The notes under the pieces: model-generated
What the model was told of the DNA's origin: nothing
What the model saw: the letters and a program-made list of their open reading frames with translations, nothing else
The model's database searches: none
Made by a program: the position numbers and the translations under genes
In this document: one piece after another, positions 2,675-29,792 of the stretch
Layout of the letters: each line of letters starts with the position of its first letter
How positions within the stretch are numbered: position 1 is the first letter of the stretch
From: a virus
Strand: one strand, 5' to 3'
Virus record (IMG/VR): IMGVR_UViG_3300025131_000133
Span: 1 to 39,285 of that record
Length of the DNA stretch: 39,285 bases

Positions 2675-3610
2675 GTGAAACACTTAAAAGAATATATAGC
2701 TAGAACTATAAACGAAGTTGCTGGATCTGAAGATATTATAGCGCATAATGTTAAACAATTGGATACAATAAAGTTTGATGGTAAGTCACTCTTTGAAAGG
2801 TTTTGGCCTGGTGATTGGATACCAGCAGAATATCTAAGTGGTCGTGATATTTGGGGCGGTCAAAAGGTGAAACCTGGAACCGATCAACAAGGGCCCTCAG
2901 CATTTGAAGAAGAAAATAAAATTAAACTTGTAGCATCTATTAAGTCACTTACAACAAGTAAAATAGTAAAAGGTGCAGGCCGAGGTGCTTATAAATATGT
3001 TTATATCTTAGATAATACACATGCTCTTAGTATTTTCAAAGGCGGCTACAATATCGAAGATATTGATATTTTCAAAAAAATGTATGATTCACAATTTGGT
3101 GGTACAGGATCAAAAAATGACCCAGCAATTTATGATATCTCAACTGTGCAAGATACACAAGGCGGTGAAATAAGCTTTGTTGAAATGTCTCAAGTCATAC
3201 CTATTCGTGCATGGCTTAGCATGAGTGGTCGTGAGTCTGGTACACATGGTGAAAAAGGTGCCAGTAGGACTATTCAAGCAATTAAAAAAATGGTATCGAG
3301 TATAAAACATATTTCATCATTTACAGATGGTGATGAATACAAATTACGCCCTAGTGCATCAACAATAATCAAGTTGATAAAGGCTAAGCGACTATCATAT
3401 AAAGATCCATGGCAACACAATGATGATCCAAGAATTATGATTGAAATGCCTAAAATAGAAGGATTGACAAAGAAAGAAGCATGGGGGTTTTTAAGAATGC
3501 TATTATATGTTGCGCATACTCATGGGTGGGGTTCATTGGGAGATATGCATATGGGTAACTTTGGTGTCATGATTCAAAATCCAACAACGTTTGTTGCATA
3601 TGACATATAA
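2675..3610 (+). CDS. Kinase-fold protein 2 (GTG start)
   Basis: I place the start at GTG 2675, directly after the upstream stop (2671-2673). From there 'KHLKEYIARTINE' aligns without gaps to the N-terminus of the preceding paralogue; the ATG at 2654 would add seven unaligned residues. The 311-residue product has a glycine-rich loop 'GAGRGAYKYV' (101-110), Lys122 ('SIFKGG') at the ATP-lysine position, hinge 'FVEMSQVIPI', catalytic-loop 'DMHMGN' (290-295) and terminal 'AYDI' with Asp310. It is about 47 residues longer than its neighbour, mainly in the N-terminal linker and the segment before the catalytic loop. Like its paralogue it ends at the metal-binding Asp. The pair looks like a tandem duplication. 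Function inferred only: kinase-like phosphotransfer; target unknown. Confidence 0.6.
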   Translation: MKHLKEYIARTINEVAGSEDIIAHNVKQLDTIKFDGKSLFERFWPGDWIPAEYLSGRDIWGGQKVKPGTDQQGPSAFEEENKIKLVASIKSLTTSKIVKGAGRGAYKYVYILDNTHALSIFKGGYNIEDIDIFKKMYDSQFGGTGSKNDPAIYDISTVQDTQGGEISFVEMSQVIPIRAWLSMSGRESGTHGEKGASRTIQAIKKMVSSIKHISSFTDGDEYKLRPSASTIIKLIKAKRLSYKDPWQHNDDPRIMIEMPKIEGLTKKEAWGFLRMLLYVAHTHGWGSLGDMHMGNFGVMIQNPTTFVAYDI

Positions 3611-8178: not shown

Positions 8179-8646
8179 ATGAAAAAATCGTTAACACGTA
8201 GCAGAGGGACAAATGATAATTGGCCCTTTAATGGGAATGCATTTGGTAATGTATTCAATGACTTAATAGCAAACAGCTTCATCTTCAAAGATGATTTAGA
8301 TTTTCGTGATACGCCAGACTGGAATAAGAGATGGGCAACTGTAACGACTACATTTGCTGATGCGACATATGCGACTGATGATGCAGCTGTTATAGAGTTG
8401 ACAGCTTCTGGCTATTCAAAAGAAAATATTACACTTGATGTATCTGATACTAAATTAACAATTAGTGCACCAAAAGTTGATAAAGAAAAAGGCATTGTAC
8501 TAGATGGTTTTACAAAATCATATGCACTTGGTTCATCTCATGACAAAAATAATATTAGTGCAACATTTGTTGATGGGTTGTTAACAGTGACAATCCCGTT
8601 TAAAGAAAAAAGTGAACCAACAACAAAACAAATAGAAATTAAATAA
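8179..8646 (+). CDS. Hsp20 / alpha-crystallin small heat-shock protein
   Basis: A 155-residue small heat-shock protein. The alpha-crystallin domain runs from about 65 to 145, with the expected beta-sandwich signature 'VIELTASGYSKENI', then 'LTISAPK' and the hallmark 'ATFVDGLLTVTIPF'. The C-terminal 'KQIEIK' contains the I-x-I anchor that docks into neighbouring subunits during oligomer assembly. These ATP-independent holdases bind unfolding proteins; T4-like cyanophages and other marine myophages commonly carry one, presumably to help capsid or tail folding or to protect host function during infection. The start is fixed by a strong ribosome-binding site (AAGGAG, about 8168-8173) a few bases upstream. 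A 15-bp palindrome lies about 40 nt upstream and may control it. Confidence 0.92.
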   Translation: MKKSLTRSRGTNDNWPFNGNAFGNVFNDLIANSFIFKDDLDFRDTPDWNKRWATVTTTFADATYATDDAAVIELTASGYSKENITLDVSDTKLTISAPKVDKEKGIVLDGFTKSYALGSSHDKNNISATFVDGLLTVTIPFKEKSEPTTKQIEIK

Positions 8647-10823: not shown

Positions 10824-11174
10824 ATGAAAATTAAAAAATCTAAAATTCAAACAATAATTAATGAAGCAATACGAAACGCACCAGAAAATTATATGTTACC
10901 TGATGGTCGTGAAGTTAGATTTGCATCAGAAGACCACATTAATCATGTCAAATTGACACTTGATTCATTAATTCGTATGAGAAATGAATCACCAAGAACA
11001 CCTCGAGGTGGTGTTAGAGCAGCATCTCGACAAACATATGGTGATGCTGCACGCATGCGAAAAAAAGAATTAAACGATATCTTAAAGCTTGCTGAACTTT
11101 TAAACAATGAACCTGAAAGTGAAGATAATGAAGTTTTAGAAACACCTGATAACGGATGCATTTCTGAATCATGA
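10824..11174 (+). CDS. Small head-module protein with shared N-terminal leader motif
   Basis: A 116-residue protein I do not recognise. It starts three bases after the terminase stop. Its N-terminus 'MKIKKSKIQTIINEAI' belongs to a leader family seen on several proteins here: basic first residues, an amphipathic helix and Ile/Leu-x-x-x-Glu. 'TIINE' followed by Ala resembles the T4 capsid-targeting peptide (ending FIAE) and the predicted capsid cleavage site LLLE/A. The middle (residues 50-80) is Arg-rich ('RTPRGGVRAASR'), suggesting DNA or RNA contact, and the tail is acidic. It overlaps the next gene by 4 nt (ATGA). Inference: internal head protein; no enzymatic motif is visible. Confidence 0.6.
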   Translation: MKIKKSKIQTIINEAIRNAPENYMLPDGREVRFASEDHINHVKLTLDSLIRMRNESPRTPRGGVRAASRQTYGDAARMRKKELNDILKLAELLNNEPESEDNEVLETPDNGCISES

Positions 11175-11488
11175 AAATTAAACGCTCAGAACTAAATACA
11201 CTTCGTAAAGTAATTCGTGAACAGTTTTATGAATCTAAACATGTTGATATGTATGTCAAAGACGTTGTACAAAAATCAGCTAAAGTAATAGATGATCACA
11301 TACAACTAATAGTAGATGAAATTATGCATATGTGGTTCGAACTTGATCCGAATAATGAAGCACTTGAAAGGCTTGCACATGAAACAGCAAGCAATCTGGA
11401 AGATCAATTTGACTCTGAGCACTTTACCATGCTTGGTAAAGTTAAAGAAATGACAATAATGCTACAACGTGAATTCACCGAGCGATAA
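11171..11488 (+). CDS. Small helical head-module protein with leader motif
   Basis: A 105-residue, predominantly helical protein of unknown family. The N-terminus 'MKIKRSELNTLRKVIRE' carries the same basic amphipathic leader as its neighbours. The rest is charged and helical ('VVQKSAKVIDDHIQLIVDEIMHMWFE', about 33-58), likely a coiled coil or helical bundle. It overlaps the preceding gene by ATGA, so the two are probably coupled and made in similar amounts. Its place between terminase and portal suggests a head-internal or assembly role. Nothing in the sequence gives a biochemical function. Confidence 0.6.
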   Translation: MKIKRSELNTLRKVIREQFYESKHVDMYVKDVVQKSAKVIDDHIQLIVDEIMHMWFELDPNNEALERLAHETASNLEDQFDSEHFTMLGKVKEMTIMLQREFTER

Positions 11489-11561
11489 TATTCCTACCTT
11501 TTTGGGTTTTAAAAAATAGATATAGAATGAGCTATCAGTCATTTTGGAGGATTATAGTATC

Positions 11562-11813
11562 ATGAAAATGAGATTAAGTGAATTAAAGGCACTTATACGT
11601 AAAGAGTATAAAGAAATATTATCGCTAGACCATCCGGAGGATGTGAAAAGTGAAGAGGGTAAGTGGGAAGGTGGTGACAACTTAGTTGGCAAGGTTGATC
11701 ATAAAAAAGCATACAAAATCAAAGAACGACGTAGGGTTGCAAAGAAGATTAAGTTAAGTGAGCTCAGAGATATGATTTTAACATCTCTTCGTGAACACAG
11801 AAACAAAATCTGA
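11562..11813 (+). CDS. Small protein carrying the leader motif twice
   Basis: The start is ATG 11562, supported by GGAGG at 11546-11550; a longer reading from TTG 11544 would run through this ribosome-binding site. The 83-residue product begins 'MKMRLSELKALIRKEYKE' and near its end repeats 'KKIKLSELRDMILTSLRE', two copies of one amphipathic motif separated by a charged, Gly-containing linker. It is very basic. No known domain. Because the same motif begins neighbouring proteins, this one might be a bivalent adaptor or core protein binding whatever recognises the leader. That role is inference; the internal repeat is directly visible. Confidence 0.6.
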   Translation: MKMRLSELKALIRKEYKEILSLDHPEDVKSEEGKWEGGDNLVGKVDHKKAYKIKERRRVAKKIKLSELRDMILTSLREHRNKI

Positions 11814-11851
11814 TCATTTATTAAGCTTACGATCGGTATATAATTCATAAT

Positions 11852-13891
11852 ATGTCAGATAGAATTTCACTTTTCAAGCGTCTAACTAGGGTATTTCGTA
11901 GTGGCCCTATAGTCAAAAGCAAGATAAAGGCTGCAAGCTCGTATGTAGAAGCACCTGCAAGTTCATTCTTAGACCATTTCAGGTCATCAAATTATTTATA
12001 TTCAAATGCTGTTGCAAGTTATGGAACTTATGATCGTCTTAGTCGCTATGCAGACTACTCAGAAATGGAGTACACTCCAGAATTAAGCTCTGGCTTAGAT
12101 ATATACTCTGATGAAGTGTGTGCATCAGATGAACATGGTCGCATTGTTCATATTTACTCAGACAACCAACGTGTACGTGAGCTATTAGAGCATTTATTCT
12201 ATGATACATTAAACATAGAGTTTAGCATGCATAGTTGGATTAGAAATCTTGTCAAGTATGGTGACTTCTTCTTATTCAACGATGTACACACACATTATGG
12301 AATTGTCAATACATTCCCAATACCAGTCAATGAAATAGAACGTGAAGAAGGATATGATCCCGAAGACCCGCTGGCCGTTCGCTTCAGATGGGTTACACAA
12401 GGAAATCAAATTCTTGAAAACTGGATGGTTACACATTTCCGCTTGTTGGGAAATGACAACTTCTTACCGTATGGAAGCAGTGTAATTGAACCAGCAAGAA
12501 GAATATGGCGTCAATTGATATTGATTGAAGATGCAATGATGGTTTATAGAATCATTAGATCACCTGAGCGTCGTGTATTTTATATTGATGTCGGCAACAT
12601 CGACCCTGGAGATGTACCAACATATCTAGAAAAAGTCAAAACAAGCCTAAAGCGTCAATCTGTAATAAACACTAGCACTGGTAGAGTTGATCTTCGTTAT
12701 AATCCATTAAGTGTTGATGAGGACTACTTTATTCCTATTAGGGGCGATACCTCAACAAAAATTGAAACATTGGCTGGTGGGCAGTTTACTGGTGACATAG
12801 AAGACGTTGAGTATATTCAAAAGAAACTATTTGCGGCAATAAAGATCCCTAGAGCCTACCTAGGTTATGATGAAGATCTATCAGGCAAGGCAACGTTAGC
12901 ACAAGAAGATATACGTTTTTCACGTACAATAACACGTGTACAAAAAATTGTTATTAGTGAGTTGAACAAGCTGGCAATGATTCACTTAGCTGCTCATGGA
13001 TTTGATGGTCAAGATCTAATTAATTTTAGAATTGCCCTTAGCAATCCATCAACTGCCGCACAACAACAAAAGCTTGAACTTTGGAGGGCAAGATTTGAAA
13101 TAGCTTCATCAGCCCCAGACGGTATGTTTTCAAAACGTTGGATTCATAAGAACTTATTCTTGCTTGATGATAAAGAAATTCAATCTATCAAAGATGAGTT
13201 GCTTGCTGAACGTGAAGAAGATCTTGAATTAGAGCAAGTTGGTCAAGAAGAAGATCTTGGTGGTCAACCTCCTGCAGGTGGTGAGGAGGGCGGTGGAGAA
13301 GAAGATCTAAATCTAAGCGGAATTATGGGTGGTGAACCAAAGCCTGAGCCAGGTGCGCAACTGGAAGCAGGAATAGAACATGAGTGGGATGTTATTACAC
13401 CAAGTATTAATAGGCCTGAATCATTAGAAGAAATTGAAGATAATCTAGATAATCTAGATGAAAAAGAAAGACCGAAGGGGCGTATGCGTAGAGGTCGACC
13501 TCATAAGTCGTTATCATACGGTGTAGACGGCACTGAGATGCCTGACTTGAATAAGCATGTAGACTACACTGATAATGACCCATACGATAATGATTTCATG
13601 AAGAACATTGGTAAAGTAGATAAACTAATGGATGAAGATGACACAGGTAAATTAGACAAGTTTTTTGATAGCAAAATAACATCAATTGCTAGAATCAACA
13701 ATCAAGTTGAATCAATGCTTAAAAATTTAAATACATCTTTGGGTTTAAGTAGCTTAAATGCAGGCCCACAAATATTAACTGAAGATCTTGAAAATGTTGT
13801 AACTGGTCTAAGTGACATAATAAATGAATCACAAGATATTGAAATTGATATCGATGATATAGAAAAAGATCCAGCTAGTAGTGATGAGTAG
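11852..13891 (+). CDS. gp20: Portal protein (gp20-like)
   Basis: A 679-residue portal, the dodecameric ring at the capsid vertex through which DNA enters and exits and on which head assembly starts. Family features include 'YTPELSSGLDIYSDE' (about 75-89), 'RSPERRVFYIDVGN' (about 240-253), a long stretch on the crown/stem boundary with 'IKIPRAYLGYDEDLSGKATL' (about 330-350), and 'DIRFSRTITRVQK'. It is longer than T4 gp20 (524) mainly because of an acidic, Gly-rich, low-complexity tail from about 470 on ('EEDLGGQPPAGGEEGGGEED') and a helical end. The gene has its own short upstream region (TATATAATTC about 11837) and no strong Shine-Dalgarno. Confidence 0.95.
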   Translation: MSDRISLFKRLTRVFRSGPIVKSKIKAASSYVEAPASSFLDHFRSSNYLYSNAVASYGTYDRLSRYADYSEMEYTPELSSGLDIYSDEVCASDEHGRIVHIYSDNQRVRELLEHLFYDTLNIEFSMHSWIRNLVKYGDFFLFNDVHTHYGIVNTFPIPVNEIEREEGYDPEDPLAVRFRWVTQGNQILENWMVTHFRLLGNDNFLPYGSSVIEPARRIWRQLILIEDAMMVYRIIRSPERRVFYIDVGNIDPGDVPTYLEKVKTSLKRQSVINTSTGRVDLRYNPLSVDEDYFIPIRGDTSTKIETLAGGQFTGDIEDVEYIQKKLFAAIKIPRAYLGYDEDLSGKATLAQEDIRFSRTITRVQKIVISELNKLAMIHLAAHGFDGQDLINFRIALSNPSTAAQQQKLELWRARFEIASSAPDGMFSKRWIHKNLFLLDDKEIQSIKDELLAEREEDLELEQVGQEEDLGGQPPAGGEEGGGEEDLNLSGIMGGEPKPEPGAQLEAGIEHEWDVITPSINRPESLEEIEDNLDNLDEKERPKGRMRRGRPHKSLSYGVDGTEMPDLNKHVDYTDNDPYDNDFMKNIGKVDKLMDEDDTGKLDKFFDSKITSIARINNQVESMLKNLNTSLGLSSLNAGPQILTEDLENVVTGLSDIINESQDIEIDIDDIEKDPASSDE

Positions 13892-13912
13892 TTATTTTAA
13901 CTTCTTGTCTTA

Positions 13913-13928
13913 TATATATAAAAGATAC
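13913..13928 (+). promoter_or_regulatory. Promoter-like 16-mer TATATATAAAAGATAC
   Basis: This 16-mer lies 20 nt before the ATG at 13949 and is identical to the one at 26134-26149. It resembles the T4 late promoter (TATAAATA), which serves as the only recognition box for the gp55 sigma-like factor. Exact repetition in two separate intergenic gaps supports a real signal. Confidence 0.5.
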
Positions 13929-13948
13929 AATAGACAGGTATTACATGA

Positions 13949-14803
13949 ATGATTAAGCATAACAAGAAGCGAAATACATTATTGCTTTATGAGTTTTTAA
14001 TGAAATCACTAATAAAGTCTATTTTAGAGAATAACTCTAAACAGGCTGACTTTAAGATTAATTTATTAAAGAGATTTCATGATAGAGATTCACAATTGTT
14101 TAGAGAGCATAAAATCATGTGTGCTTTAAGTGAAATGAAAGTTTCGTGCGAAAGCACTGTCGATAAAATATTTGAAGATGTTAAAGAATTTTCTAGAAAT
14201 ATCAATTACAAAGTCCTTAATAAAGAAAAGACATTATTGATAAATGAAATACACAATAACATAAAAGACGATGATTTTTATAACTATCATATAAATGAGT
14301 ACGTGTTATATGCGACAATACATAATTTGATTAATGAATATAGAAGTAGTACAAGTGTAGATTTTGATAAAAAAGTAAAAATATCTATATTTGAAGATAA
14401 CATAAAGCAACATCTAAAAGAGCAGAAAGATGAATCAAGTGAAATGTTAACTGAAGATGGGAAAGTTTATAATAACTTGACAACAAAGATAATCATAGAA
14501 CGTTTCAATAAAAAATATTCACATCTTAACAGTTTACAAAATAACTTGTTAAACACATATACATTTAAAAGTGACAATATCAATGAATCACTTTTAAGCG
14601 CAAAAGAGAAAATCTTAGAGCACATTAATATGATAAGCGATTCTGATTCAAGTATTAATACTGATGCTAGCTTAGTAAACAAAATAAACGATATCAAAGA
14701 AGGTCTAGAAAGATTATCTATAGATAATAACGTGAAAATTGATGATGTCACTGTCAATAAAGTTATATGTTACGGAGAAATAATGAATTATGATATCAGC
14801 TGA
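13949..14803 (+). CDS. Helical head-assembly protein between portal and protease
   Basis: A 284-residue, strongly helical, Lys/Asn/Ile-rich protein, starting 'IKHNKKRNTLLLYEFLMKSL'. No catalytic motif or membrane segment is seen. It occupies the place of the T4 core genes 67/68, between portal (20) and prohead protease (21), so a prohead core or assembly-chaperone role is reasonable; no residue-level resemblance to gp67/gp68 is claimed. 'LLLYEFLMKSL' near its N-terminus faintly recalls the amphipathic leaders elsewhere ('LLYEFI' in the 1879 gene). A promoter-like 16-mer lies upstream, and its 3' end overlaps the protease gene by 14 nt, suggesting coupled expression. Confidence 0.6.
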   Translation: MIKHNKKRNTLLLYEFLMKSLIKSILENNSKQADFKINLLKRFHDRDSQLFREHKIMCALSEMKVSCESTVDKIFEDVKEFSRNINYKVLNKEKTLLINEIHNNIKDDDFYNYHINEYVLYATIHNLINEYRSSTSVDFDKKVKISIFEDNIKQHLKEQKDESSEMLTEDGKVYNNLTTKIIIERFNKKYSHLNSLQNNLLNTYTFKSDNINESLLSAKEKILEHINMISDSDSSINTDASLVNKINDIKEGLERLSIDNNVKIDDVTVNKVICYGEIMNYDIS

Positions 14804-15422
14804 TGAACAATATCTATTAACTGAATACGCGGATATTGATTATTCACGTGAACTAATAAAAGAGGCTATTGGTGAAAATAAACCTATCACACTCACAGGT
14901 GTGATGCAAAGGGCTGGAACATTAAACCAAAATAAGCGTATATATCCTAGACACATCTTAGAGCGTGAAGTTGACAACTATATGAAAATTGTCAATGAAG
15001 ACCGGGCTGTAGGTGAACTTGATCATCCTAATGAAAGCGTTGTAGAGTTGAAAAATGCATCACATATTGTACGTGAATTATGGTGGGACGGTGATGATTT
15101 ACTAGGAAGGATCGAAGTATTAACAACACCATGCGGAAAAATATTACAAGCACTACTAGAAAGTGGTGTAAAGATAGGAATCTCATCACGAGGTGTTGGG
15201 TCACTTAAAAAACAGGGTGATACACATATGGTTGAAGATGATTATGTTCTAATTTGTTGGGACATAGTCTCAGAGCCTAGCACACCCGGTGCATTTGTCG
15301 TTCGTGAGGGTAAGGTTGTTTCTGTTTCTAGTAATGAAGTTGTTAATTCCTTTAATAAGACAGACAGGCTAAATAGAATATTAAATTCTATATCTACTAA
15401 CATCGAGGCGATAAATGAATAG
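14790..15422 (+). CDS. gp21: Prohead core protease (gp21-like, S78/U9 family)
   Basis: A 210-residue maturation protease, close to T4 gp21 (212). Visible signature: 'AVGELDHP' with likely catalytic His79, 'KIGISSRGVGS' with catalytic Ser at 132/133, and 'WDIVSEPS' (D158) supplying the acidic partner. In T4 this enzyme is enclosed in the prohead, becomes active after shell completion and cleaves scaffold, capsid, and internal proteins after Glu in (Leu/Ile)-x-Glu contexts. Matching sequences occur in the capsid protein here (LLLE70/A71) and at several leader motifs. The ATG has GGAG upstream (about 14775) and overlaps the preceding frame by 14 nt; the stop overlaps the next gene by 8 nt. Confidence 0.93.
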   Translation: MISADEQYLLTEYADIDYSRELIKEAIGENKPITLTGVMQRAGTLNQNKRIYPRHILEREVDNYMKIVNEDRAVGELDHPNESVVELKNASHIVRELWWDGDDLLGRIEVLTTPCGKILQALLESGVKIGISSRGVGSLKKQGDTHMVEDDYVLICWDIVSEPSTPGAFVVREGKVVSVSSNEVVNSFNKTDRLNRILNSISTNIEAINE

Positions 15423-15882
15423 AACAGGTTCTATGCGCGCAATCCCTTCAATCGGAGCGGGTTATGCACCAGCATATCAAGTAAGTGGTGATCCGTACTT
15501 TAAGACATTAAAGGTGGCAGCATCTGGAAATGCACCAACAAAAGTGACATTCCCCTCAGTAACTAAATTTGTCCAAGTGACAAATTTTACAAGTGGTTCA
15601 AACGTTTATATTGGCGTAACTGAACGTGGAGTAACTAATGGTTTAGATAGCCAGGGATCAACTGGTGAATTCTTTCCACTATCCGGTGCAAATGGTGTGG
15701 CAGGAAATGGAAATATGCTCCCAACAACCTTTGGTCCCATTGATATCAGGACAAAAATATTGTTTTTTGTATCACATGATGCAGTAGTACCACATATTAA
15801 TGTGTTCGCAGGATTGACGACTATACCACATAAGAATATGATCTTCCATACAGGTAGTGATAATTGGGAAGGAGTTGGCTAA
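15415..15882 (+). CDS. Probable virion structural protein, unknown type
   Basis: A 155-residue, Gly/Thr/Val-rich, probably beta-structured protein. Motif-like segments include 'VTFPSVTKFVQVTNFTSGSNVYIGVTE' region (about 44-70) and 'GPIDIRTKILFFVSHD' (about 107-122). No signal peptide or enzyme motif. It overlaps the protease by 8 nt and is followed closely by the next gene, so it belongs to the head operon. The composition suggests a decoration protein, head fibre or other beta-sandwich virion component, but I do not recognise the family. Confidence 0.55.
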   Translation: MNRTGSMRAIPSIGAGYAPAYQVSGDPYFKTLKVAASGNAPTKVTFPSVTKFVQVTNFTSGSNVYIGVTERGVTNGLDSQGSTGEFFPLSGANGVAGNGNMLPTTFGPIDIRTKILFFVSHDAVVPHINVFAGLTTIPHKNMIFHTGSDNWEGVG

Positions 15883-15883
15883 T

Positions 15884-16471
15884 ATGAAACTCAAAAAGAA
15901 ACAACTAAAGGGCCTTATCAAAGAGTGTTTACAGGAAATGTTTGCTGAAGAATTTGTCAATACTGTTATACAGACAAAACTTGATCAATTTGTTGCACTA
16001 CAGTTACGTGAAAGTATTGAACAAGCACAACAAGCTGTTATACAACAACCACAACAACAATACTTTACACCACAACAACAAGTAAATAGACAACAAATGC
16101 TTAGAGAGATGGCACCAGATGTTAATTCAACACAACAATACAACGCTCCACAGGCACAAATTCCACAACATGATGATCTAAATGATAGAATGAGTAAATT
16201 CAAACAAACAATTCATAATGTGACTCATGGTGATACACCACAAGCGCAACGTGCTCCTGTAGCACAACAGCCGGCACGTATTGTTGAAAATACTGATTCA
16301 AGTTCTAATATGATGCAATCAATATTTGCAGACACCGCAGCAACAACACTACAATCACAAGCAGATGCTGGCAAAGCTGGTATGGGACCGGGGGTTAACC
16401 CAATGGATCCTGGGATTGATATTAGTGCAATGGTCAACCCTAACTGGGGCCGCATGGCTGGAATAAAATAA
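15884..16471 (+). CDS. Gln-rich head-module protein with leader motif
   Basis: Start at ATG 15884, with AAGGAG at 15869-15874 and 9-nt spacing; a longer reading from 15857 would place this site inside the gene. The 195-residue product begins 'MKLKKKQLKGLIKECLQE', one of the clearest copies of the shared amphipathic leader, with LIKE and LQE as possible protease sites. From about 35 to 85 it is Gln-rich, encoded by CAA-repeat DNA (about 16027-16100). The rest is disordered-looking (Gln, Ala, Pro) and it ends 'MVNPNWGRMAGIK'. No known domain. Inference: an internal head or structural protein removed or trimmed during maturation. Confidence 0.6.
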   Translation: MKLKKKQLKGLIKECLQEMFAEEFVNTVIQTKLDQFVALQLRESIEQAQQAVIQQPQQQYFTPQQQVNRQQMLREMAPDVNSTQQYNAPQAQIPQHDDLNDRMSKFKQTIHNVTHGDTPQAQRAPVAQQPARIVENTDSSSNMMQSIFADTAATTLQSQADAGKAGMGPGVNPMDPGIDISAMVNPNWGRMAGIK

Positions 16472-16504: not shown

Positions 16505-16807
16505 ATGGCAACTACTAAAGCAGATATAACAGTCAATCCACGAGTTGGACCAGGGTCATTATTATTTCCTGCATCTCCTTTATTGGATATAGTTTCACTT
16601 GTGCCTAATGATAATGGTTTTCCTAAATCACCAGTGATTGAAAGATTTGTTCCCGGTGAAGAAGGTGAATTTGATGAGATAGTTGGTACAAGGCCACTTC
16701 CTGATTCACCAGCAGATTTTGCACAAGATCATGCAAACAGAGCAAAAGAGCATCGCGATGGATCAGAACCAACTGCATCGACGGCGTTGCAAGATGCTAA
16801 CTCTTAA
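16505..16807 (+). CDS. Short acidic/proline-rich protein preceding the Fic gene
   Basis: A 100-residue protein with Pro/Gly-rich, probably extended sequence: 'VNPRVGPGSLLFPASPLLDIVSLVPND' region (about 10-37), an acidic middle ('GEEGEFDEIVGT', about 51-62) and a helical end ('DFAQDHANRAKEH'). Ends 'TALQDANS'. No known domain. Its last 14 nt overlap the Fic protein gene, whose ATG at 16794 lies inside it, so translation of the two is probably coupled and they may act together (antitoxin, chaperone or structural partner are all possible). No Shine-Dalgarno is visible. Confidence 0.5.
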   Translation: MATTKADITVNPRVGPGSLLFPASPLLDIVSLVPNDNGFPKSPVIERFVPGEEGEFDEIVGTRPLPDSPADFAQDHANRAKEHRDGSEPTASTALQDANS

Positions 16808-19763
16808 TAACATATTCAATGAATTATTACTTGAAGGTCGCTTAGAGCAAGCACAAAAGAAGTACCCAAAATTCCATACTGAGATTGAACAATTAGCAGA
16901 TGTTGATCCAAGTGGTAAGCTAAAATATCTTGCATGGCAAGTTAAACAACTTGCTTTAGACGAGCCTATAACTGAAATCATATCACTTGTCAATCAATTT
17001 CATAATGCAAGCAAGAGGCTTTCAAAAAAAGATATATATCAATATAAAACGCTTGGAGATTTACGTCATGCTTTTGAGACAGAATTAAAAGTTAATGATG
17101 GGCCAAATGTAAAGCAAATTAAAAAAGAAGAAGCAGAAAAGCTTTATGAAGATGAGCAATATGTGCTTATTTTACCTAAAACAAAGGAAGCAAGTTGTCT
17201 ATATGGCAAAGGGACTAAGTGGTGCATAGCAGCAACACAAAGTGAAAATTACTTTGATCAATATGTACTTGATGCAGAGACAAACGCATTATTTTTCTTT
17301 CTTATTAACAAGCAAATGGACACTAGCGATCCTAATCATAAACTTGCTTTTACATACATACGAAATGAAGATTTATATTTAGAAGAGCTTCAAGTGTTTG
17401 ATGCACATGATACACAAATTGGCCAGACTAAGGGCCTTGAAAGTATCGAAGATGAAGATAAACGTACTGAAATTAAAAGAATCATGGATTCATATCTGAC
17501 TCGCCGATATGCTACACCAACTAAAAAGAAGTTCATGCTTATTTATGGTGAAAATACATCACCAGAAGTGCTAGCAAAGTTGGCAAGCGATAAAAATAAA
17601 GAAATAAGAGCTGGAATTGCAAACAATAGTAGTACGCCGCCAGAGGTATTAATAAGACTCTATAAGGATCCGGATCCTGAAGTTAGACTTGGTGTGGCAG
17701 CAAACAAAAATCTTCCTACTGAAATGCTAAAAACATTATCAGGTGACAAAGATTCTTCTGTGCGTTTTAATGTTGCTATTAATAAAGGTGCACCACCGGA
17801 GATATTAAAAGTATTATCAACTGATGAAGAGTTTGAAGTACGTAGAGCTGCCATAGGCAACCCTAATGCATCCATAGAGATGCTTACTTCTGCTGCAAAT
17901 GATAATAATAATAAATATATTCGTGCTGCTATTGCAAGGAATCATAATACACCATTAGAGGTATTAAAGAAACTTGCTCATGATACCCCAATGTTTATAA
18001 GCAGATATATGGTAAAAAATCCAAACCTTACACCAGAATTAATGCAACTACTGTTAAAGTTAGACCACACAGCCGCGCTTAGAGTAGAAATTGCAAAACA
18101 TCATAATGCATCACCAGAAATACTGGATACACTTGGAGGCAACATAAGTCAATATGTGCGTATTGCAGTAGTAAGAAATCCCAATACATCAATAGAGACA
18201 TTGAAAGTTTTAATGAAAGATAGACAGTGGTCTATTGAAAGGGAGGCACGCGCAAGACTAGAAAAAGAAATAGCGCTTGAAGAGAGTGTATTCAATAAAC
18301 TTCTTGAAAATGTAGCCAGCACTGGCTATCATGCACAAGGCTTTGCACCATCATTCCGAGGCGGTTGGTCACAGATAAAGCAACAACCACATAAGCACCC
18401 TCGTGAAGCAGGATTTCCATATAGAAATTATGAAGATACAGAAGATGTTGAGCAAGAAGTAGAAGATTTTGATACTGTTGTTGGAATAAAAAATAAATTA
18501 AATATTGCAAAAGTACCACAATCTATGATGGCTGATCCAGGTAGCAACTATGATACCGGTCGTAAAACTCAGATGATGATGACAAGTCGTGGTGGCTCTA
18601 ATGAGTTAGATTTTGAAGATGATCAAGAATATGTTAGTAGAGTGAATCTAAAAGAAGAATCTGAAGAAATGGGTGACACAAATCCAAAAGAACTTGCAAA
18701 ATTTATTGTACGTTCAAATAAAATTGAGGGTTATGATGTGCCATTCGAACATGCACTTGAAGCTGTTGAGGGATACTTAGAGGGATATCCTGTACGCTAT
18801 GTGACTAATAACAAACATATCTCTGCTCACTTAGCAGCGCTTAAAGTTGCTCAAGAGTTAAAAAATATAAAATCTGTCAATAGTATTAGAGAAATACATA
18901 GGGCTATGGGTCAAGATGTCTTAGATGCCGGTTCGCCTGGGATGATTAGAACTGATACAGAGGTTACATCAATGGGTGGAACACAATATGCACCAAGCTC
19001 AGATGTTCCAGCAGCATTATCATGGTGGGTATCACATTCTTTCAATTCACCTTTCGAAGCACATGTTGCGTATGAACTGATACATCCGTTTGATGATGGA
19101 AATGGTAGATCAGGCAGAGTAATTCTTGCTGCAATGATGAATTTTGATTGGGCACACATTAATCAATTCATAGATAGAACATATTTTGGTAGATTAAATA
19201 ACGTTGGAAAGAAATTTAGTGGCTCATTTTGGAATCAGAAACAAAATTCAGAGAAACTTGATGAGTGGGGTAAATCACAATACTCATTATACAAAAATCA
19301 ACCCGGGCACCACGGTTCTGCATTACATCAACAACCAAGTAAAGCTGGTGGATCACTTGGTATGCGAGGTGCCTCTGTTGCTCACCCGGGACAAGGTCCT
19401 GCAGGTTGGTCTGCTGGAATGGGTGAAAAAGCATCAGATGATGTTTGGGATGAATCTGAAGAAGAGGAAGGATATATTAGCCCAATTCACAAGTTTGTGC
19501 GTAAGTCAATTCGTGGTACATTGAAAGAATTAGTAATAGCACCTATTCATGGTAAAGATGGAACAGGCTCTACCGGTAGGTTCAATGGTTATCGTGGTTT
19601 GAATACATGGGCTAGGGGCGACTTAAAATATCGCGGGCTTAAAAAGAAAGATACACATGATGATCAAGATAGATTAAAGTTAACTCAGTGGTATAGCGAC
19701 GACGAGCGTGAAAACCCAGAGACAGATGGTGTATATTGGTATGAACAAAAGGAGTTACCATGA
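16794..19763 (+). CDS. LRV-repeat Fic-domain protein (putative AMPylase/nucleotidyltransferase)
   Basis: Start at ATG 16794 ('MLTLNNIFNELLLE'), giving 989 residues; reading on from 16683 only adds the overlapping frame of the upstream gene. Order: amphipathic leader; a domain with 'YGKGTKWC' (137-144) that I know only as a recurring phage segment; nine 25-27-residue leucine-rich-variant-like repeats (about 254-485; pattern Asn-x-x-x-x-x-Glu-x-Leu, later Arg); an acidic linker; a Fic domain with complete 'HPFDDGNGRSGR' (His764); a Gly-rich linker; and 'FVRKSIRGTLKEL' near the end. 'SNKIEG' (641-646) matches the class II Fic inhibitory motif (S/T)xxxE(G/N). Fic enzymes usually transfer AMP to hydroxyl groups of target proteins. 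ATGA couples it to bS21. Confidence 0.85.
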   Translation: MLTLNNIFNELLLEGRLEQAQKKYPKFHTEIEQLADVDPSGKLKYLAWQVKQLALDEPITEIISLVNQFHNASKRLSKKDIYQYKTLGDLRHAFETELKVNDGPNVKQIKKEEAEKLYEDEQYVLILPKTKEASCLYGKGTKWCIAATQSENYFDQYVLDAETNALFFFLINKQMDTSDPNHKLAFTYIRNEDLYLEELQVFDAHDTQIGQTKGLESIEDEDKRTEIKRIMDSYLTRRYATPTKKKFMLIYGENTSPEVLAKLASDKNKEIRAGIANNSSTPPEVLIRLYKDPDPEVRLGVAANKNLPTEMLKTLSGDKDSSVRFNVAINKGAPPEILKVLSTDEEFEVRRAAIGNPNASIEMLTSAANDNNNKYIRAAIARNHNTPLEVLKKLAHDTPMFISRYMVKNPNLTPELMQLLLKLDHTAALRVEIAKHHNASPEILDTLGGNISQYVRIAVVRNPNTSIETLKVLMKDRQWSIEREARARLEKEIALEESVFNKLLENVASTGYHAQGFAPSFRGGWSQIKQQPHKHPREAGFPYRNYEDTEDVEQEVEDFDTVVGIKNKLNIAKVPQSMMADPGSNYDTGRKTQMMMTSRGGSNELDFEDDQEYVSRVNLKEESEEMGDTNPKELAKFIVRSNKIEGYDVPFEHALEAVEGYLEGYPVRYVTNNKHISAHLAALKVAQELKNIKSVNSIREIHRAMGQDVLDAGSPGMIRTDTEVTSMGGTQYAPSSDVPAALSWWVSHSFNSPFEAHVAYELIHPFDDGNGRSGRVILAAMMNFDWAHINQFIDRTYFGRLNNVGKKFSGSFWNQKQNSEKLDEWGKSQYSLYKNQPGHHGSALHQQPSKAGGSLGMRGASVAHPGQGPAGWSAGMGEKASDDVWDESEEEEGYISPIHKFVRKSIRGTLKELVIAPIHGKDGTGSTGRFNGYRGLNTWARGDLKYRGLKKKDTHDDQDRLKLTQWYSDDERENPETDGVYWYEQKELP

Positions 19764-20050: not shown

Positions 20051-21196
20051 ATGAGCAGACTATTAGACGAAGCACTACTTGATGCAAAGCAAGTTAGAGA
20101 AGTAGCAGAAAAAAATGCAATGCGCATGTTAGTGGAGAAGTCTATGCCACGCATCAAAGAGTTCATAAGCGCTAGATTAGAAGAAGACGCTTATGAAGAA
20201 GACAAAGAGCTCTTACATGATGAAGAAGAAACTCCCGAACTTGGTAATGAATTAGCTCCTGATGAAGAAGGCCCAGTATTAGGGCCTGAACTTGAGGGTG
20301 ATGTTGCAATCAATCATGATGCAATGCCAGAAATGCCAAATGAATTAGAAGGTGGAGCACCAGAAGGCGAACATGTCTGTCCTGTTTCTGGAGAAGAAGA
20401 GCAAATTTTTAACATCGATGTCGATTTTGACGAAGATGAAATGGAAAGCGATAAAATGAATAATATTGGAGGCGATACTATAATGGCTAGCGAACTTTAC
20501 AAACTTCTAGAGGTAGATCAACAAGACAAATCTGTAGATGTAGATGAGAAGAAAGATCTCGAAGAAGGTATGGGTGACGAGGAGTTAGAATTGGATGAAA
20601 TGTCCGATGTTCCTGGTGAGGAAGATCCATCACTTGCAGAAAGCGATGAAGTTGATGAATGGGTAGAAATTAGTGAAGAAGAATTAGAAGCTGCACTTGC
20701 AGAAATGGATAATCTTGATGATCTAGAAGAAGGTCCTAATCAACCTTTTGACAAAAAGCCAAAAGTAAACTTAGATGGTGACGTACTAGCTCTTAAAGAA
20801 TCAGTGCGCACTTATCGAAGCCAGCTTAATGAAATGAAAGTTGTAGTCAACAAGCTACGCGGTCAAATTCATGAAACAAATCTCTTCAATGCAAAACTTC
20901 TATATGCTACGAAACTAGTAAATAGAAAAGATATAACAAATGAAAATAAAGAGCGAGTAATTGATACTCTTGATAAAGCATCAAGCATTCGCGAAGTAAA
21001 ATTGGTCTATGAGACTTTCGTAAAGGCTCTTGTAGGCAAAGGTAGCGTTCAACGTCAAGTTAATGAAAGCGCAGTTAGAGCAGCCGGCGTCGGTGGCGCC
21101 TCACGAGTTTCTAGAAGCGCGGGCACTCAACCACAATCACTAAATGAGAATGCCGATTTTGGTAGATGGCGAACACTAGCTGGGTTAAATAACTAA
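20051..21196 (+). CDS. gp22: Prohead scaffolding core protein (gp22-like)
   Basis: A 381-residue, very acidic protein directly upstream of the capsid gene, as for T4 gp22. The first 50 residues form a charged helix ('DEALLDAKQVREVAEKNAM'); residues 50-240 are dominated by Glu/Asp; about 250-280 is a coiled coil ('LKESVRTYRSQLNEMKVVVNK' region); about 285-330 is helical. The C-terminal 'NADFGRWRTLAGLNN' matches the W-x-x-LAGL end shared by gp22-type scaffolds. Many Leu/Ile-x-Glu sites (for example LLDE/A at residues 4-8) suit destruction by the prohead protease after shell assembly. Role: template for capsid protein assembly, removed before DNA entry. Confidence 0.85.
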   Translation: MSRLLDEALLDAKQVREVAEKNAMRMLVEKSMPRIKEFISARLEEDAYEEDKELLHDEEETPELGNELAPDEEGPVLGPELEGDVAINHDAMPEMPNELEGGAPEGEHVCPVSGEEEQIFNIDVDFDEDEMESDKMNNIGGDTIMASELYKLLEVDQQDKSVDVDEKKDLEEGMGDEELELDEMSDVPGEEDPSLAESDEVDEWVEISEEELEAALAEMDNLDDLEEGPNQPFDKKPKVNLDGDVLALKESVRTYRSQLNEMKVVVNKLRGQIHETNLFNAKLLYATKLVNRKDITNENKERVIDTLDKASSIREVKLVYETFVKALVGKGSVQRQVNESAVRAAGVGGASRVSRSAGTQPQSLNENADFGRWRTLAGLNN

Positions 21197-21219: not shown

Positions 21220-23172
21220 ATGTCAGATAAACAATTTAATTTACGAACCCTATCCGAAGACATTCGTGCTCGCAATATGGGACTCGAAAATAGTCGACTA
21301 GTCCACAAGTGGAATCAAACTGGTCTTCTAGAAGGTTTAAACGATAACCAAAGCAAAGATGCAATGGCTCGTCTTCTAGAGAATCAATGTGCTGAACTTC
21401 TACGTCAAAGTGGCGGTCTTCTACTAGAAGCCTCATCAGTTTCAACTGGTGGTGGAAGTCTAGCATCCAGCGGTGATCTACGTGGTTTCCAAAATATTGC
21501 ATTCCCAATCGTACGAAGGGTATTCGGTGGGTTACTAGCAAATGAGCTAGTATCGATACAGCCGATGGCACTGCCATCAGGTCTGTTGTTCTACCTAGAT
21601 TATACATATGGTACTAACACTGGTGCGGCTGCCGGACAGGCAACGTATGAAGCCGGTGAGTCCGTATATAATGGTCCAGCAGGTAAAGGTGTCCGTTCAG
21701 GTTCACTAGCAACTGGTGGTCAATTTGATCTAGTCGGAACTGGTTACTCAAAAGTACATAACTCAACATCAGCGATTTTGCAAGTTATGGCTTCAGGTGC
21801 ATTCAACTCAGCCGGCGTTGCTCAAGGGACTTTGTCTCGTGGCGCAACGATGGTAGCAACAGGTTCTGATGCTGTCTTAGCACAGTTTGATCCTGAAGTT
21901 CTGCGTCAAATTGAGTTTGGTGTACACAAAGGTGATAGCACGACTGCTGAACACGGTCACTATCAGATTGTTATTCTTGATGCTACACAGCTATCAAGTT
22001 CAGACAATACACAAATTGAGCAAGTTGCTCTAAGCTCAGATGACTTGTCATCAAAGGGTTTAGGTACAGTAGGTGAGAAGGTACAAGGTGGCAAAGTCGC
22101 TAACGTACGTCGCTTGAACCAACTAGGCAACTACTCATTAGCGGGTGGTGGATCAGGTGGTTCATGGACAGCGGATCCGTTCGCAGGTGTCCACGTACTA
22201 ATGGTCGTAACTGGTGCTTTAGTAATTAGTGACCCAGGTCAAGCTGATGCTGACACTGCGTTACATTGCCAAGGTTTGACTGCATCATTCGTAATCAAAG
22301 ACACATTAGATGTCGATTCAACTGAAGGTTCGACTTTAGCGATTCCTTCATTCGAATCTGACTTTGGTGCTACACCATCGCCAGCAATTCCTGAAATTGA
22401 CATCAAAGTAGAGTCAATCGCTGTAACGGCACAAACTCGAAAGTTGAGAGCTCGCTGGACTCCAGAACTAGCTCAAGACTTGAACGCATACCATAACTTG
22501 GATGCAGAGGTTGAGCTAACTCAGATTCTATCTGAGCAGATTGCTCTAGAAATAGACAGAGAGATCGTAAATGATCTATTAGTCGAAGCTAAGGGTGCAA
22601 ACTTCTTCTGGTCACGTTCACCAGGTAAGTTCGTCAATAAGCAAAATGGAAGTGAAATCTCCAGAACTACTTCATTGACTCCTGGACCTGCGTTTACTGG
22701 TAACGTACGTGAATGGTATGAGACTTTGGTCGAAACCATCATAGACGTAGCAAACCAGATCCACAGGAAGACACTACGAGGTGCAGCTAACTTCATCGTT
22801 ACTTCACCAGATGTGTGCACTATCCTAGAAGCTTCCGTGCTACATAAACCAGATCTGCGCTCCGATGCAAATGGGCAGGTTTCCTACCCAGGCAACATTG
22901 GTGCACTACCAGCTGGTTCATTAGCCGGTCGATTCCGACTATACAAAGATCCTTACTTCCCACGAAATAAGGTCCTTGTTGGTTACAAGGGTGGTAGCTT
23001 CCTAGAGACAGGATATGTATACGCTCCGTACGTACCATTGATTGTCACTCCAACGATCTTCGAACCCGAAGACTTCACCCCACGTAAGGGTGTTATGACG
23101 CGTTATGGTAAGAAGATGGTACGAGCTGATTTTTACGGAACTGTGACATGTCTCGACATGGATATTATCTAG
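21220..23172 (+). CDS. gp23: Major capsid protein (gp23-like)
   Basis: A 650-residue T4 gp23-type, HK97-fold capsid protein (T4 gp23: 521). Hallmarks: N-terminal delta region then 'SGGLLLE/ASS', with E70/A71 matching the gp21 cleavage rule; 'IAFPIVRRVFGGLLANELVSIQPM' region (about 92-115); 'LRARWTPELAQDLNAYHNLDAE' region (about 407-428); 'FIVTSPDVCTILEAS'; and the C-terminal 'GGSFLETGYVYAPYVPL' and 'RKGVMTRYGKKMVRADFYG'. Extra length lies mostly between about 150 and 400, likely an insertion on the outer surface. AAGGAG sits about 16 nt before the ATG, and a strong terminator follows, consistent with high expression. Codon use looks less A/T-biased than its neighbours, as often for abundant proteins. 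Confidence 0.97.
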   Translation: MSDKQFNLRTLSEDIRARNMGLENSRLVHKWNQTGLLEGLNDNQSKDAMARLLENQCAELLRQSGGLLLEASSVSTGGGSLASSGDLRGFQNIAFPIVRRVFGGLLANELVSIQPMALPSGLLFYLDYTYGTNTGAAAGQATYEAGESVYNGPAGKGVRSGSLATGGQFDLVGTGYSKVHNSTSAILQVMASGAFNSAGVAQGTLSRGATMVATGSDAVLAQFDPEVLRQIEFGVHKGDSTTAEHGHYQIVILDATQLSSSDNTQIEQVALSSDDLSSKGLGTVGEKVQGGKVANVRRLNQLGNYSLAGGGSGGSWTADPFAGVHVLMVVTGALVISDPGQADADTALHCQGLTASFVIKDTLDVDSTEGSTLAIPSFESDFGATPSPAIPEIDIKVESIAVTAQTRKLRARWTPELAQDLNAYHNLDAEVELTQILSEQIALEIDREIVNDLLVEAKGANFFWSRSPGKFVNKQNGSEISRTTSLTPGPAFTGNVREWYETLVETIIDVANQIHRKTLRGAANFIVTSPDVCTILEASVLHKPDLRSDANGQVSYPGNIGALPAGSLAGRFRLYKDPYFPRNKVLVGYKGGSFLETGYVYAPYVPLIVTPTIFEPEDFTPRKGVMTRYGKKMVRADFYGTVTCLDMDII

Positions 23173-23289: not shown

Positions 23290-24264
23290 ATGATTAAATG
23301 TAAAATATGTAATAAAGAATTCAAGAGTAGATTATCATCACATGTAAAAAGAATTCATGTAATGGATTATAAAGACTATCTTATAAAGTATGAACATAAT
23401 GGAGAGATACCAAAGTGTACTTGTGGTTGTAATATAGAAACACCGTTTACTACATCTGGTGGAATGAGCTTTAATAAATATATTCATGGGCATAATGCAA
23501 AAGACAAAATCTGGACTAAAGAAGCACGTGAAAGCATTGGAAAGAAGAATAGCAATAACATGAAGTGCTTTATGAGAGAGAATCCTGATGTAGCGAAGCT
23601 ACGCTCTAAGCAAATGAATGCTGGCCAAACTAAAGAAGTTCGTAAAAGAACTGCTATTTCTATTAGAAGTACATATGATAACATGAGTGATAAAGAAAAG
23701 CAAAAATTTAGTGACCACTCGGCAAGGCTTTGGGCAGAAAATAAAGAAGTGATGCAGCAAGGGGCAATCAAAGCTGGTAAGACATTTAGCAAGAACTTTG
23801 ATGATGGCAAATACGATTTCACAGAGCGTGATAAAAAGATATCTGAATCAATAACTAAGAAGTATCTTGAAGGTGGGTTTCAGTGGGCACGTGGTCATTA
23901 TACATCAACTAAATGGGGTAAGACATATTATTATCGTTCTAGTTGGGAGTTAAAGTACATGCAACTACTAGACAGTGATGATAATGTTGGCAGTTGGAAA
24001 TATGAACCATTCTCACTAGAGTATAAGATTAATGGAAAAGCAAAAAACTATATTCCTGACTTCATAGTAACAAGAAAATCAATCAGTTGTGGATACATTT
24101 TTGATGAATTAGTTGAAATAAAACCACAAGCATTGACAGATACAAAAGTAAATAAAGCGAAACGTAAAGCAGCACTTAAATGGTGTAAAGAAAATAATTA
24201 CTGTTATACTGAAGTATGGTATAATGAAATAATTAATGAATTTGAAAAAATAGACTACGCGTAG
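23290..24264 (+). CDS. PD-(D/E)XK homing endonuclease with C2H2-like zinc finger
   Basis: A 324-residue free-standing endonuclease. The N-terminus has a C2H2-type finger ('CKICNKEFKSRLSSHVKRIH', 4-23) and a second Cys group ('CTCGC', about 43-47). The middle is a basic helical DNA-binding region with NUMOD3-like pieces ('TKEARESIGKKNSNNMK'). The C-terminal nuclease reads 'YYYRSSWELKYMQ' (Glu), 'YIPDFIV' (Asp) and 'LVEIKPQ' (Glu-x-Lys): a complete PD-(D/E)XK core like the EDxHD/Vsr-type homing nucleases. Such enzymes cut phage genomes lacking the gene, driving their own spread. It lies directly after the capsid terminator. No Shine-Dalgarno is visible. It shares its C-terminal architecture with the gene at 27394. 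Confidence 0.8.
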   Translation: MIKCKICNKEFKSRLSSHVKRIHVMDYKDYLIKYEHNGEIPKCTCGCNIETPFTTSGGMSFNKYIHGHNAKDKIWTKEARESIGKKNSNNMKCFMRENPDVAKLRSKQMNAGQTKEVRKRTAISIRSTYDNMSDKEKQKFSDHSARLWAENKEVMQQGAIKAGKTFSKNFDDGKYDFTERDKKISESITKKYLEGGFQWARGHYTSTKWGKTYYYRSSWELKYMQLLDSDDNVGSWKYEPFSLEYKINGKAKNYIPDFIVTRKSISCGYIFDELVEIKPQALTDTKVNKAKRKAALKWCKENNYCYTEVWYNEIINEFEKIDYA

Positions 24265-27393: not shown

Positions 27394-28416
27394 ATGCCTA
27401 TACTAAAGATTGAAAAAACACTAAATAAAGAAGCCGGTAAGATAAAGCGTATCATACATTATCAATGTGATTCATGTGATAAACAATTCACCCGTCCATA
27501 TAAGAAAGCGCAAGTAGAAAAAAATAAAAAATATACATATTGTAAAAAAGATTGCTATTACAAATCTAGAAGCAAGGGTGGAAAAGATTATAAAAAACGC
27601 TTACAAAGCGGCACATTATCACTAGCTGGAAAGCGTATGAATGAAATTACAAAAGAAAGATATGGTGCTCATTCATCACAACTTGATTTTGTTAAAAGAA
27701 AAGTAAAAAAGACACATGAAGAAAAATATGGTGGGGTAGGATTTGCAAGCAAAAAGCTTGCAAAGAAATCTCATGAAAAGACATTGAAATTGTATGGTGT
27801 TGAACATGCATTACAATCAGATGAAATAAAAGAAAACCAAAGAAAGACTAATAAAAAGAAATATGGTTATGATCATGTGCTGCAGGTGCCAGAAATAAAA
27901 AAGAAAGCAGAAAAGACAAACATGAAACGTTATGGTGGAAAGAAACCAATGTGCGCAAGTAAAGTACGTAATAAACAAGAACAGACATGTATAAAAAGAT
28001 ATGGTGTTAGAAACTATTCACAAACACAAGAATTTGCAGATATGAATATTTGGGATAAATATCACGTAACTGGTCATATTCAATTTATGAACAAACAAAT
28101 TTACTACCGTAGCTCATATGAAAAGCGCTTTCTAGAATGGTGTGTCAAGAACATTCACATAATCAAAGATATCACACCAAATATTAGCTTCAAGTATTTT
28201 CGTAAATCTGGTAAGCAACACATATATTTTGCAGATTTTCTTATTGAATTCAATACTGGCAAGCATATTCTTTATGAAATAAAACCGCAAACCTTTGTCA
28301 ATTCAGAACTAAATCAAGCAAAATTTAAAGCTGTGCGTCAACAACTAAAAGAAAAGAATATAGACAAGTTTATAATTATCACTGAGAATGAACTGGCATA
28401 TTTAAAGCATGGGTAG
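27394..28416 (+). CDS. PD-(D/E)XK homing endonuclease with repeated DNA-binding helices
   Basis: A 340-residue free-standing endonuclease. N-terminus: a four-Cys zinc site ('CDSCDKQF' about 25-32, then 'CKKDC' about 50-54). Middle: at least four degenerate repeats of about 30 residues with 'K..T..KYG....LQ...IK.K' (about 85-210), a pattern seen in phage homing endonucleases. C-terminus: 'YYRSSYEKRFLEW' (Glu), 'YFADFLIEF' (Asp) and 'ILYEIKPQ' (Glu-x-Lys), a complete PD-(D/E)XK core close to the gene at 23290. Its stop overlaps the next structural gene by 8 nt. No Shine-Dalgarno. Role: mobile element nuclease; its target is probably the matching site in related phages. Confidence 0.78.
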   Translation: MPILKIEKTLNKEAGKIKRIIHYQCDSCDKQFTRPYKKAQVEKNKKYTYCKKDCYYKSRSKGGKDYKKRLQSGTLSLAGKRMNEITKERYGAHSSQLDFVKRKVKKTHEEKYGGVGFASKKLAKKSHEKTLKLYGVEHALQSDEIKENQRKTNKKKYGYDHVLQVPEIKKKAEKTNMKRYGGKKPMCASKVRNKQEQTCIKRYGVRNYSQTQEFADMNIWDKYHVTGHIQFMNKQIYYRSSYEKRFLEWCVKNIHIIKDITPNISFKYFRKSGKQHIYFADFLIEFNTGKHILYEIKPQTFVNSELNQAKFKAVRQQLKEKNIDKFIIITENELAYLKHG

Positions 28417-29036: not shown

Positions 29037-29792
29037 ATGGGTAACATCAAGTGTATTGTAGTAATGTTGACATGCCTATTAAGCACACTGTCATGTGATG
29101 TACAAGTAAATAAAAATAAAAATCCCGCAAATAAAGTTGATGCGTTTGTCTTTTTAAGAAAACTTATCATATTAAAGGCTGGTAATATAGAAGCTTCTGG
29201 TGAAATATCAACGGCATCTGGTTCATGCATAAAAAGTGATGTATATAATGATACAAAGACAGTGTTGACAGTATCACATTTTTGCAGAAAGCGTGACATA
29301 AAGAACATGCAGGCATTTAAAAGCTTAAAATCAGTTGTTTCAAAAAACAATGACAACAAAGTTACAATTCAAGCACAGAGAAAAATTGAAGTCATTCTAC
29401 ATAATGGTAAAAAAGTGAGCGCCAAGATAATAAAAGAAGACAAAGAAAATGATCTATGCTTATTAGAGCTTATCAACAATCAATGCATAGATAACATTAC
29501 AATTGCAAAGTCCCGCCCTAAACCTGGTGACAGTATAGTCAATTTCTCAGCACCACTATCAATATTCAACCCCGGGACCGTGCTATTCTTTGATGGTAGA
29601 TATGCAGGTCCTGATATATCAGGACTAAATTATCTATTTTCAGTTCCTACTACATATGGGGCATCTGGCTCACCTTTGTTGAATTCAAACTTAGATCTTA
29701 TTAGTGTAATGAAGATGACTATAGTAAAATTTAATCATGTGTCTTTGGGAGCGAACTTAAAAAGTATAAATGAGTTCGTGCATAATAAATAA
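29037..29792 (+). CDS. Trypsin-like serine protease with lipoprotein-type signal peptide
   Basis: A 251-residue protein. Residues 1-20 form a signal sequence (basic start, hydrophobic core 'CIVVMLTCLLSTLSC') with Cys20 as a plausible lipid-attachment site, though the lipobox is atypical. The mature part is chymotrypsin-fold: 'VLTVSHFC' (His81), 'DKENDLCLLEL' (Asp139) and 'YGASGSPLL' (Ser210), a complete His-Asp-Ser triad; 'TASGSCI' is the start of the barrel. It would act at or outside the cytoplasmic membrane. Neighbours are neck and tail genes; no Shine-Dalgarno is visible. Possible roles: host envelope protein cleavage, superinfection exclusion or virion processing. Targets are unknown. 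Confidence 0.75.
   Translation: MGNIKCIVVMLTCLLSTLSCDVQVNKNKNPANKVDAFVFLRKLIILKAGNIEASGEISTASGSCIKSDVYNDTKTVLTVSHFCRKRDIKNMQAFKSLKSVVSKNNDNKVTIQAQRKIEVILHNGKKVSAKIIKEDKENDLCLLELINNQCIDNITIAKSRPKPGDSIVNFSAPLSIFNPGTVLFFDGRYAGPDISGLNYLFSVPTTYGASGSPLLNSNLDLISVMKMTIVKFNHVSLGANLKSINEFVHNK

Follow-up and report, generated by a model that had tools for sequence, protein, structure and literature searches.

Many otherwise unrelated proteins of Far-T4-like phages begin with one of two short leaders, which probably direct them to the capsid and are then removed, much as happens with the T4 internal proteins IPI–III and Alt. The case, read from sequence, is built on starts that recur whatever protein body lies behind them, the statistics of the predicted cut sites, the amphipathicity of the leaders, and the protease and operon context in which they are found. 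As the tag ends in the cut site expected of the phage's own head protease, it probably serves to load the proteins that carry it into the head.

The window, by which we mean the whole 39.3-kb stretch of DNA analysed, is a fragment of a T4-like phage with a T4-type terminase gene at 9201, a gp20 portal gene at 11852, genes for a gp21-family protease and for gp23, two tail-sheath genes and one tube gene (the tagged and head genes whose coordinates are given below are all on the + strand). The terminase, portal and capsid proteins have their nearest isolate counterparts, at ~30–45% identity, in Microcystis phage Mel-JY01, Flavobacterium phage immuto and Rhodothermus phage RM378, and these identities, rather than a tree, place the phage in the Far-T4 region of the T4-like group, where gp20, gp21 and gp23 are related to those of T4 and fall outside the cultured T4 genera. 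The gp21-family prohead protease, which the first-pass annotation had placed in the same operon as the tagged genes, is present (14790–15422; Peptidase_S77 E = 4.3e-31; PHROG 207) and is the presumed remover of the leaders. The gp23-type major capsid protein (21220–23172; Gp23 E = 5.8e-78) does have the putative maturation site LLLE70/A71 that had been pointed out in it, and the propeptide ends in LLRE/S or LLKE/S in relatives. A probable scaffold in the gp22 position (20051–21196) was recognised by this position and by a MSxLLxEAxxDAxxLRExA start conserved before gp23, and is presumed to form the core to which the leaders would bind; it gave no family hit in our domain search. The window also includes a gene for a ribosomal-protein-S21-like protein (PF01165; 19760–19984) within the head operon, which follows the tagged gene in several relatives, and tandem tail-sheath paralogues of ~985 aa each (31053–34001 and 34060–37020). 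Three homing or free-standing endonuclease genes are found amid the structural genes (23290–24264, 27394–28416 and, on the - strand, 37380–37805; two are TnsA-like and one is GIY-YIG), and the structural region has genes for a Hsp20-like chaperone (8179–8646) and a trypsin-like peptidase (29037–29792).

Five ORFs in the window, starting at 10824, 11171, 11562, 15884 and 39150, open with one common motif. This had been noticed in the first-pass annotation and was borne out by a profile trained on 113 leaders of other contigs with the window sequence excluded, which placed the five at ranks 1–5 of the 490 Met positions in the window with scores of 21.7 (15884), 18.5 (10824), 15.2 (39150), 14.1 (11562) and -0.7 (11171), followed by -5.3 and -17.7 for the sixth and seventh positions. 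Scores above -5 were reached at 4 of 7249 Met positions in a reversed-sequence control, and a degenerate DNA pattern of the motif (up to three mismatches) matched four of the five places and nowhere else, with no match in 100 dinucleotide shuffles. The exact consensus first proposed was too strict, as E14 is found only in 10824, 15884 and 39150. The top-ranked ORF is a conserved head-operon gene for a 195 aa protein located 3' of the protease gene (15884–16471; leader MKLKKKQLKGLIKE/CLQEMFAE), for which an AlphaFold model made with no alignment has a helix at residues 5–19 with good confidence, a break at 20–21 and a second helix at 22–53, with the remainder poorly predicted. Three others encode small ORFans: a 116 aa protein (10824–11174; rank 2) with the leader MKIKKSKIQTIINE/A at ~10824–10877, a 105 aa protein (11171–11488; rank 5) with the divergent leader MKIKRSELNTLRKVIRE/Q in which the (I/L)xE is shifted to residue 17, and an 83 aa protein (11562–11813; rank 4) with the leader MKMRLSELKALIRKEYKE, which has E15 and no in-register (L/I)xE in that stretch. 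The fifth is a gene start cut by the end of the window (39150–39284; leader MRILKSELRSLIKE/T; rank 3). In the relative L001, which has 64% TerL identity, the motif is kept on homologues of 10824 (L001:3800) and 11562 (L001:4891). A profile scan without the Met requirement also picked out a leader-like segment, KKIKLSELRDMILTSLREHRNKI, at the C-terminus of the 11562 protein (11742–11813); C-terminal copies were rejected as a general feature, the few candidates not rising above scan noise.

This leader, which we refer to as type 1 (MKITKSQLKQIIKEE...LxE), is widespread and phage-specific. It was found on 166 proteins with ~152 unrelated bodies across Far-T4-like phages (152 clusters by a crude 4-mer criterion), and has the consensus MKITKSQL(K/R)QIIKEE, after which another LxE usually follows around residue 22. 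A 45-base degenerate DNA pattern of the canonical form matches 36 stretches in IMG/VR viral contigs, each of the matching contigs carrying many type-1-tagged ORFs, and in 84,980 prokaryote genomes the same pattern matches one contig, apparently the phage contig G014 itself. This match, L135 (PBIO01000025.1), is binned in a Halobacteriovorax MAG of the species genome set; at 101,404 bases it is exactly as long as the IMG/VR contig G014, and is presumably a binned phage. A variant leader, MKLTERKLRRIVKEEISRVL, is found in a 484-kb uncultured phage. Type 1 was not found in the closest isolates Mel-JY01 and RM378, and a tblastn search of isolates with the leader, a query too short or masked, gave no match; a match between the leader profile and the terminase of L026 was rejected as a false positive. 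The leader strings did not occur in the open-access literature we searched, nor are they mentioned in the paper on the Far-T4 genomes.

These Far-T4 contigs also have a second, different class of leader (type 2; MKLLLENWRKYLNE or MNLLREYIRELLKE). We searched de novo for starts common to unrelated bodies, a method that, as a positive control, recovers ipII/ipIII when applied to T4, and it returned MKKLLTEWRKFLKE and MNLLREYIRELLKE in these contigs. The type-2 profile, built with type 1 excluded after a freely iterated version had drifted into type 1, gave scores of 19–40 compared with 9.2 or less in 5640 reversed-sequence controls. Type-2 DNA patterns match 109 and 24 IMG/VR stretches, yielding 210 proteins in 145 body clusters. 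The genes at 1879, 2675 and 16794, which had been described as opening with looser versions of the type-1 motif, belong instead with this second class. The kinase-like protein with a GTG start at 2675–3610 has a probable type-2 leader, MKHLKEYIARTINE/V, which ranked first of 1235 start codons with a modest score, and its body is homologous to the type-2-tagged proteins L182:229-1434 and L226:4688-5893 (E = 3e-12 and 4e-10). Its paralogue at 1879–2673 (BLASTP E = 1e-37 against 2675), which for this reason is not an independent case, has a possible decayed leader, MNKKLLYEFISRAIITE/D (rank 186), and a body that is also homologous to proteins with canonical type-2 leaders. The LRV-repeat and Fic protein at 16794–19763 (Fic E = 5e-10) has a possible leader, MLTLNNIFNELLLE/G (rank 8 of 1235), and an N-terminal domain homologous to type-2-tagged L273:1174-2349 and L278:963-2177. 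We also note a third kinase-like protein at 38404–39105 (Pkinase E = 9.5e-6), the catalytic loop of which resembles that of a type-2-tagged kinase of contig G007. Immuto has shared starts of its own, with MENFDLKKFLVENKLT on four proteins (L015 / immuto 1803, 103806, 117631 and 118632) and MKKQILSEQFKRMQKLAGIITE on two (25061 and 111675), and its leader variants include MENFDLKKFLVENKLT and MKKSQLREIIRKEL.

The bodies behind type-1 leaders are nearly all ORFans by domain search, and those behind type-2 leaders include protein kinase, ART-PolyVal, zeta-toxin-like, AAA kinase, 5'-nucleotidase (NT5C), HAD, GNAT, NUDIX, C39 and other cysteine peptidase, SAM lyase and ParB-like nuclease domains, many of which could plausibly act on the host. 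With ~152 and 145 unrelated bodies, respectively, the idea of a common address on unrelated proteins, which had been proposed from the window alone, gains support. It had also been reasoned that a motif equally common on cytoplasmic replication proteins would speak against head loading; the domains on tagged bodies included no helicase, primase or DNA polymerase proper, and this objection therefore did not materialise. Among the type-2 proteins there is a DnaQ-like exonuclease (phrog_192) that could be a cytoplasmic enzyme and counts against head cargo.

Descent from one old family, with the tagged small proteins being fast-diverging paralogues in which the N-terminus is merely the slowest part to change, would account for type-1 bodies that are mostly ORFans, clustered, and similar to one another in some pairs. 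It would also suit the codons of identical leader residues, which agree within contigs in only 0.59 of cases, above the random expectation of 0.41, and part of the type-1 set therefore appears to result from recent duplication. Nonetheless, we consider such descent unlikely as a general account, given that type-2 leaders are found on clearly different folds (kinase, HAD, ART, GNAT, NUDIX, C39 and AAA), that bodies of 45–529 aa have only the leader in common, and that the (L/I)xE site reappears where the register has been lost (11 of the 13 leaders without a site at residues 12–14 have one elsewhere in residues 10–24, compared with 25% of other ORFs). The HAD family, which had no homologue of the type-2 protein in isolates, has members with a type-2 leader in G027 and G007 and a leaderless member in G014 which starts directly at the domain, and this argues that the leader is a modular add-on. 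The Mel-JY01 member of an ART-like family carries a different short start, MIKLKSLLQE, at the place of the leader.

The reading of the leader as a cleavage signal, first made from the window alone, gains support from the distribution of predicted cut sites. An (I/L)xE ends at residue 14 in 161 of 166 type-1 leaders and 35 of 43 type-2 leaders, and a second (L/I)xE in type 1, usually about eight residues after the first, has its P1 at residues 17–27 in 103 of 152 bodies compared with 11 of 152 in the next 11 residues (z = 12.2 over composition-preserving shuffles). The enrichment is z = 11–13 for (L/I)xE when a small or polar residue comes next, whereas of the control patterns (L/I)xD is not enriched (z = -1.1) and (L/I)xK only just so (z = 2.6). 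The amphipathic character ascribed to the leader was confirmed from about residue 6 (z = 3.0 over residues 6–16 for the five window leaders), but not over residues 3–14 or 3–20; the helical moment is z = 18 for type 1 and z = 11 for type 2, with a weak z = 2.4 over residues 3–20 in type 1, where the signal appears only from residue 6 (several residue spans having been tried). A strong moment of this kind is also what would be expected of a localisation or docking helix with some other partner, such as the inner membrane, the host RNA polymerase or a scaffold outside heads, with (L/I)xE a by-product of helix composition, and as T4 proheads assemble on the membrane, membrane binding alone could put proteins near heads. 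We regard this as distinctly improbable, since selection for the site itself is evident from the shuffles and from the (L/I)xK, (L/I)xD and E.(L/I) controls, and E14 is near-invariant in two otherwise different leaders.

Selection acts on the peptide, as synonymous codons vary and the DNA upstream of and flanking the leaders has nothing in common except the ribosome-binding site. A nucleic-acid element, whether a DNA cassette repeated so that genes can be shuffled or an mRNA start boosting translation, is very improbable and largely refuted by the codon test. Although A-rich starts favour initiation and recombination could occur within clusters of genes that start alike, synonymous positions vary widely and the leaders are no more alike in nucleotides (identity 0.71) than in residues (0.71).

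The placement of tagged genes in the head operon fits with removable capsid-targeting sequences. Eight relatives share a recurrent order of portal, a (M)KxKHNKKRNT protein, protease, a tagged gene starting MKKSELKxLIKEC, the S21-like gene, probable scaffold and gp23, with insertions and some variation in the order of neighbours; in the window, the Fic gene is inserted. The window gene at 15884 is the counterpart of the MKKSELKxLIKECxxEV gene in these relatives (contigs G009, G019, G010, G031, G005, G006, G013 and G027), and a second tagged gene is located directly before the protease gene in G005, G013 and G019, which is where the core genes 67 and 68 lie in T4. Of the contigs of at least 150 kb, all 13 with type 2 and all four with type 1 have a gp21-type protease, compared with 3 of 47 random contigs of at least 30 kb, a control unmatched for clade or length. 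This co-occurrence is consistent with leader cleavage, weakly so because of the unmatched control and because T4-like phages generally have gp21. G007 and G014 were rejected as counterexamples, as they also have neither gp20 nor gp23 and are therefore probably fragments without the head module. The location of tagged genes on the same strand is worthless as evidence because these phages have almost all of their genes on a single strand, and the T4 late promoter TATAAATA showed no usable enrichment at tagged genes.

We infer from these sequences that the N-terminal 14–22 residues would fold into an amphipathic helix by which the protein docks on the prohead core during assembly, that the gp21-type protease would then cut after (I/L)xE, with E14 the site in leaders of either type and a further cut near E22 in many of type 1, and that the protein so freed inside the head may be ejected with the DNA into the next bacterium. 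There would be two addresses, with type 1 mostly on small ORFans, but also on one or two conserved genes of the head operon, and type 2 largely on enzymes plausibly acting on the host. It is an even question whether the whole clade uses such two-address loading, of small and core proteins on the one hand and host-directed enzymes on the other, with new effectors joining by acquiring a 14–22-residue start, in which case the contents of the head would be readable from the genome. If the leaders do act as capsid-targeting signals, the ejected proteins of an abundant and mostly uncultured group of phages could be listed from sequence alone, and the list would be one of kinases, ADP-ribosyltransferases, nucleotidases, peptidases and many ORFans that act within minutes of the start of infection. 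The leaders would also be short tags, transferable between proteins, with which cargo could be packed into T4-like heads, and the role of the numerous small ORFans that precede phage head genes would become testable.

The closest known system is the T4 capsid targeting sequence, which is likewise a short N-terminal leader on otherwise different small proteins and an enzyme, with a gp21-type site at its end and a S77 protease in the genome, and has been proposed to let T4-like phages load varied proteins (PMC9026906); T4 Alt is processed at both ends (PMC5694885). In contrast to T4, the leaders described here are of 14–22 residues and another sequence, often have two sites, come as two types per phage, are also found on head-operon genes, and are carried by at least 13 to 20 proteins per large contig compared with the four known in T4. 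The T4 leader MKTYQEFIAEA has no profile likeness to them, and as the T4 internal proteins score with neither the type-1 nor the type-2 profile, we say that the leaders work like the T4 signal and not that they are the same signal. In phage P1, an N-terminal stretch of up to 30 residues of DarB sends a reporter into the head (PMC9024508); the Dar proteins have no detectable common consensus, whereas the Far-T4-like leaders have an explicit and repeated one. The head propeptides of phiKZ and SPN3US are removed by a related prohead protease with several sites per propeptide, and gp53/gp54 have an identical 15-residue start (PMC5694885), but these propeptides are mostly of more than 100 residues and no leader spread over unrelated proteins has been reported there. 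The mix of cargo is reminiscent of effectors that phages are known to inject, among them T4 Alt and the polyvalent proteins; the latter have predicted effector domains (ART-PolyVal and others) and are packaged and injected (PMC5512222). These domains overlap with those of the type-2 bodies, although polyvalent proteins are large and multidomain whereas here we see mostly separate small proteins with one address. The simplest account would be that the two leaders are new sequence versions of T4-like capsid targeting, used on a much larger scale.
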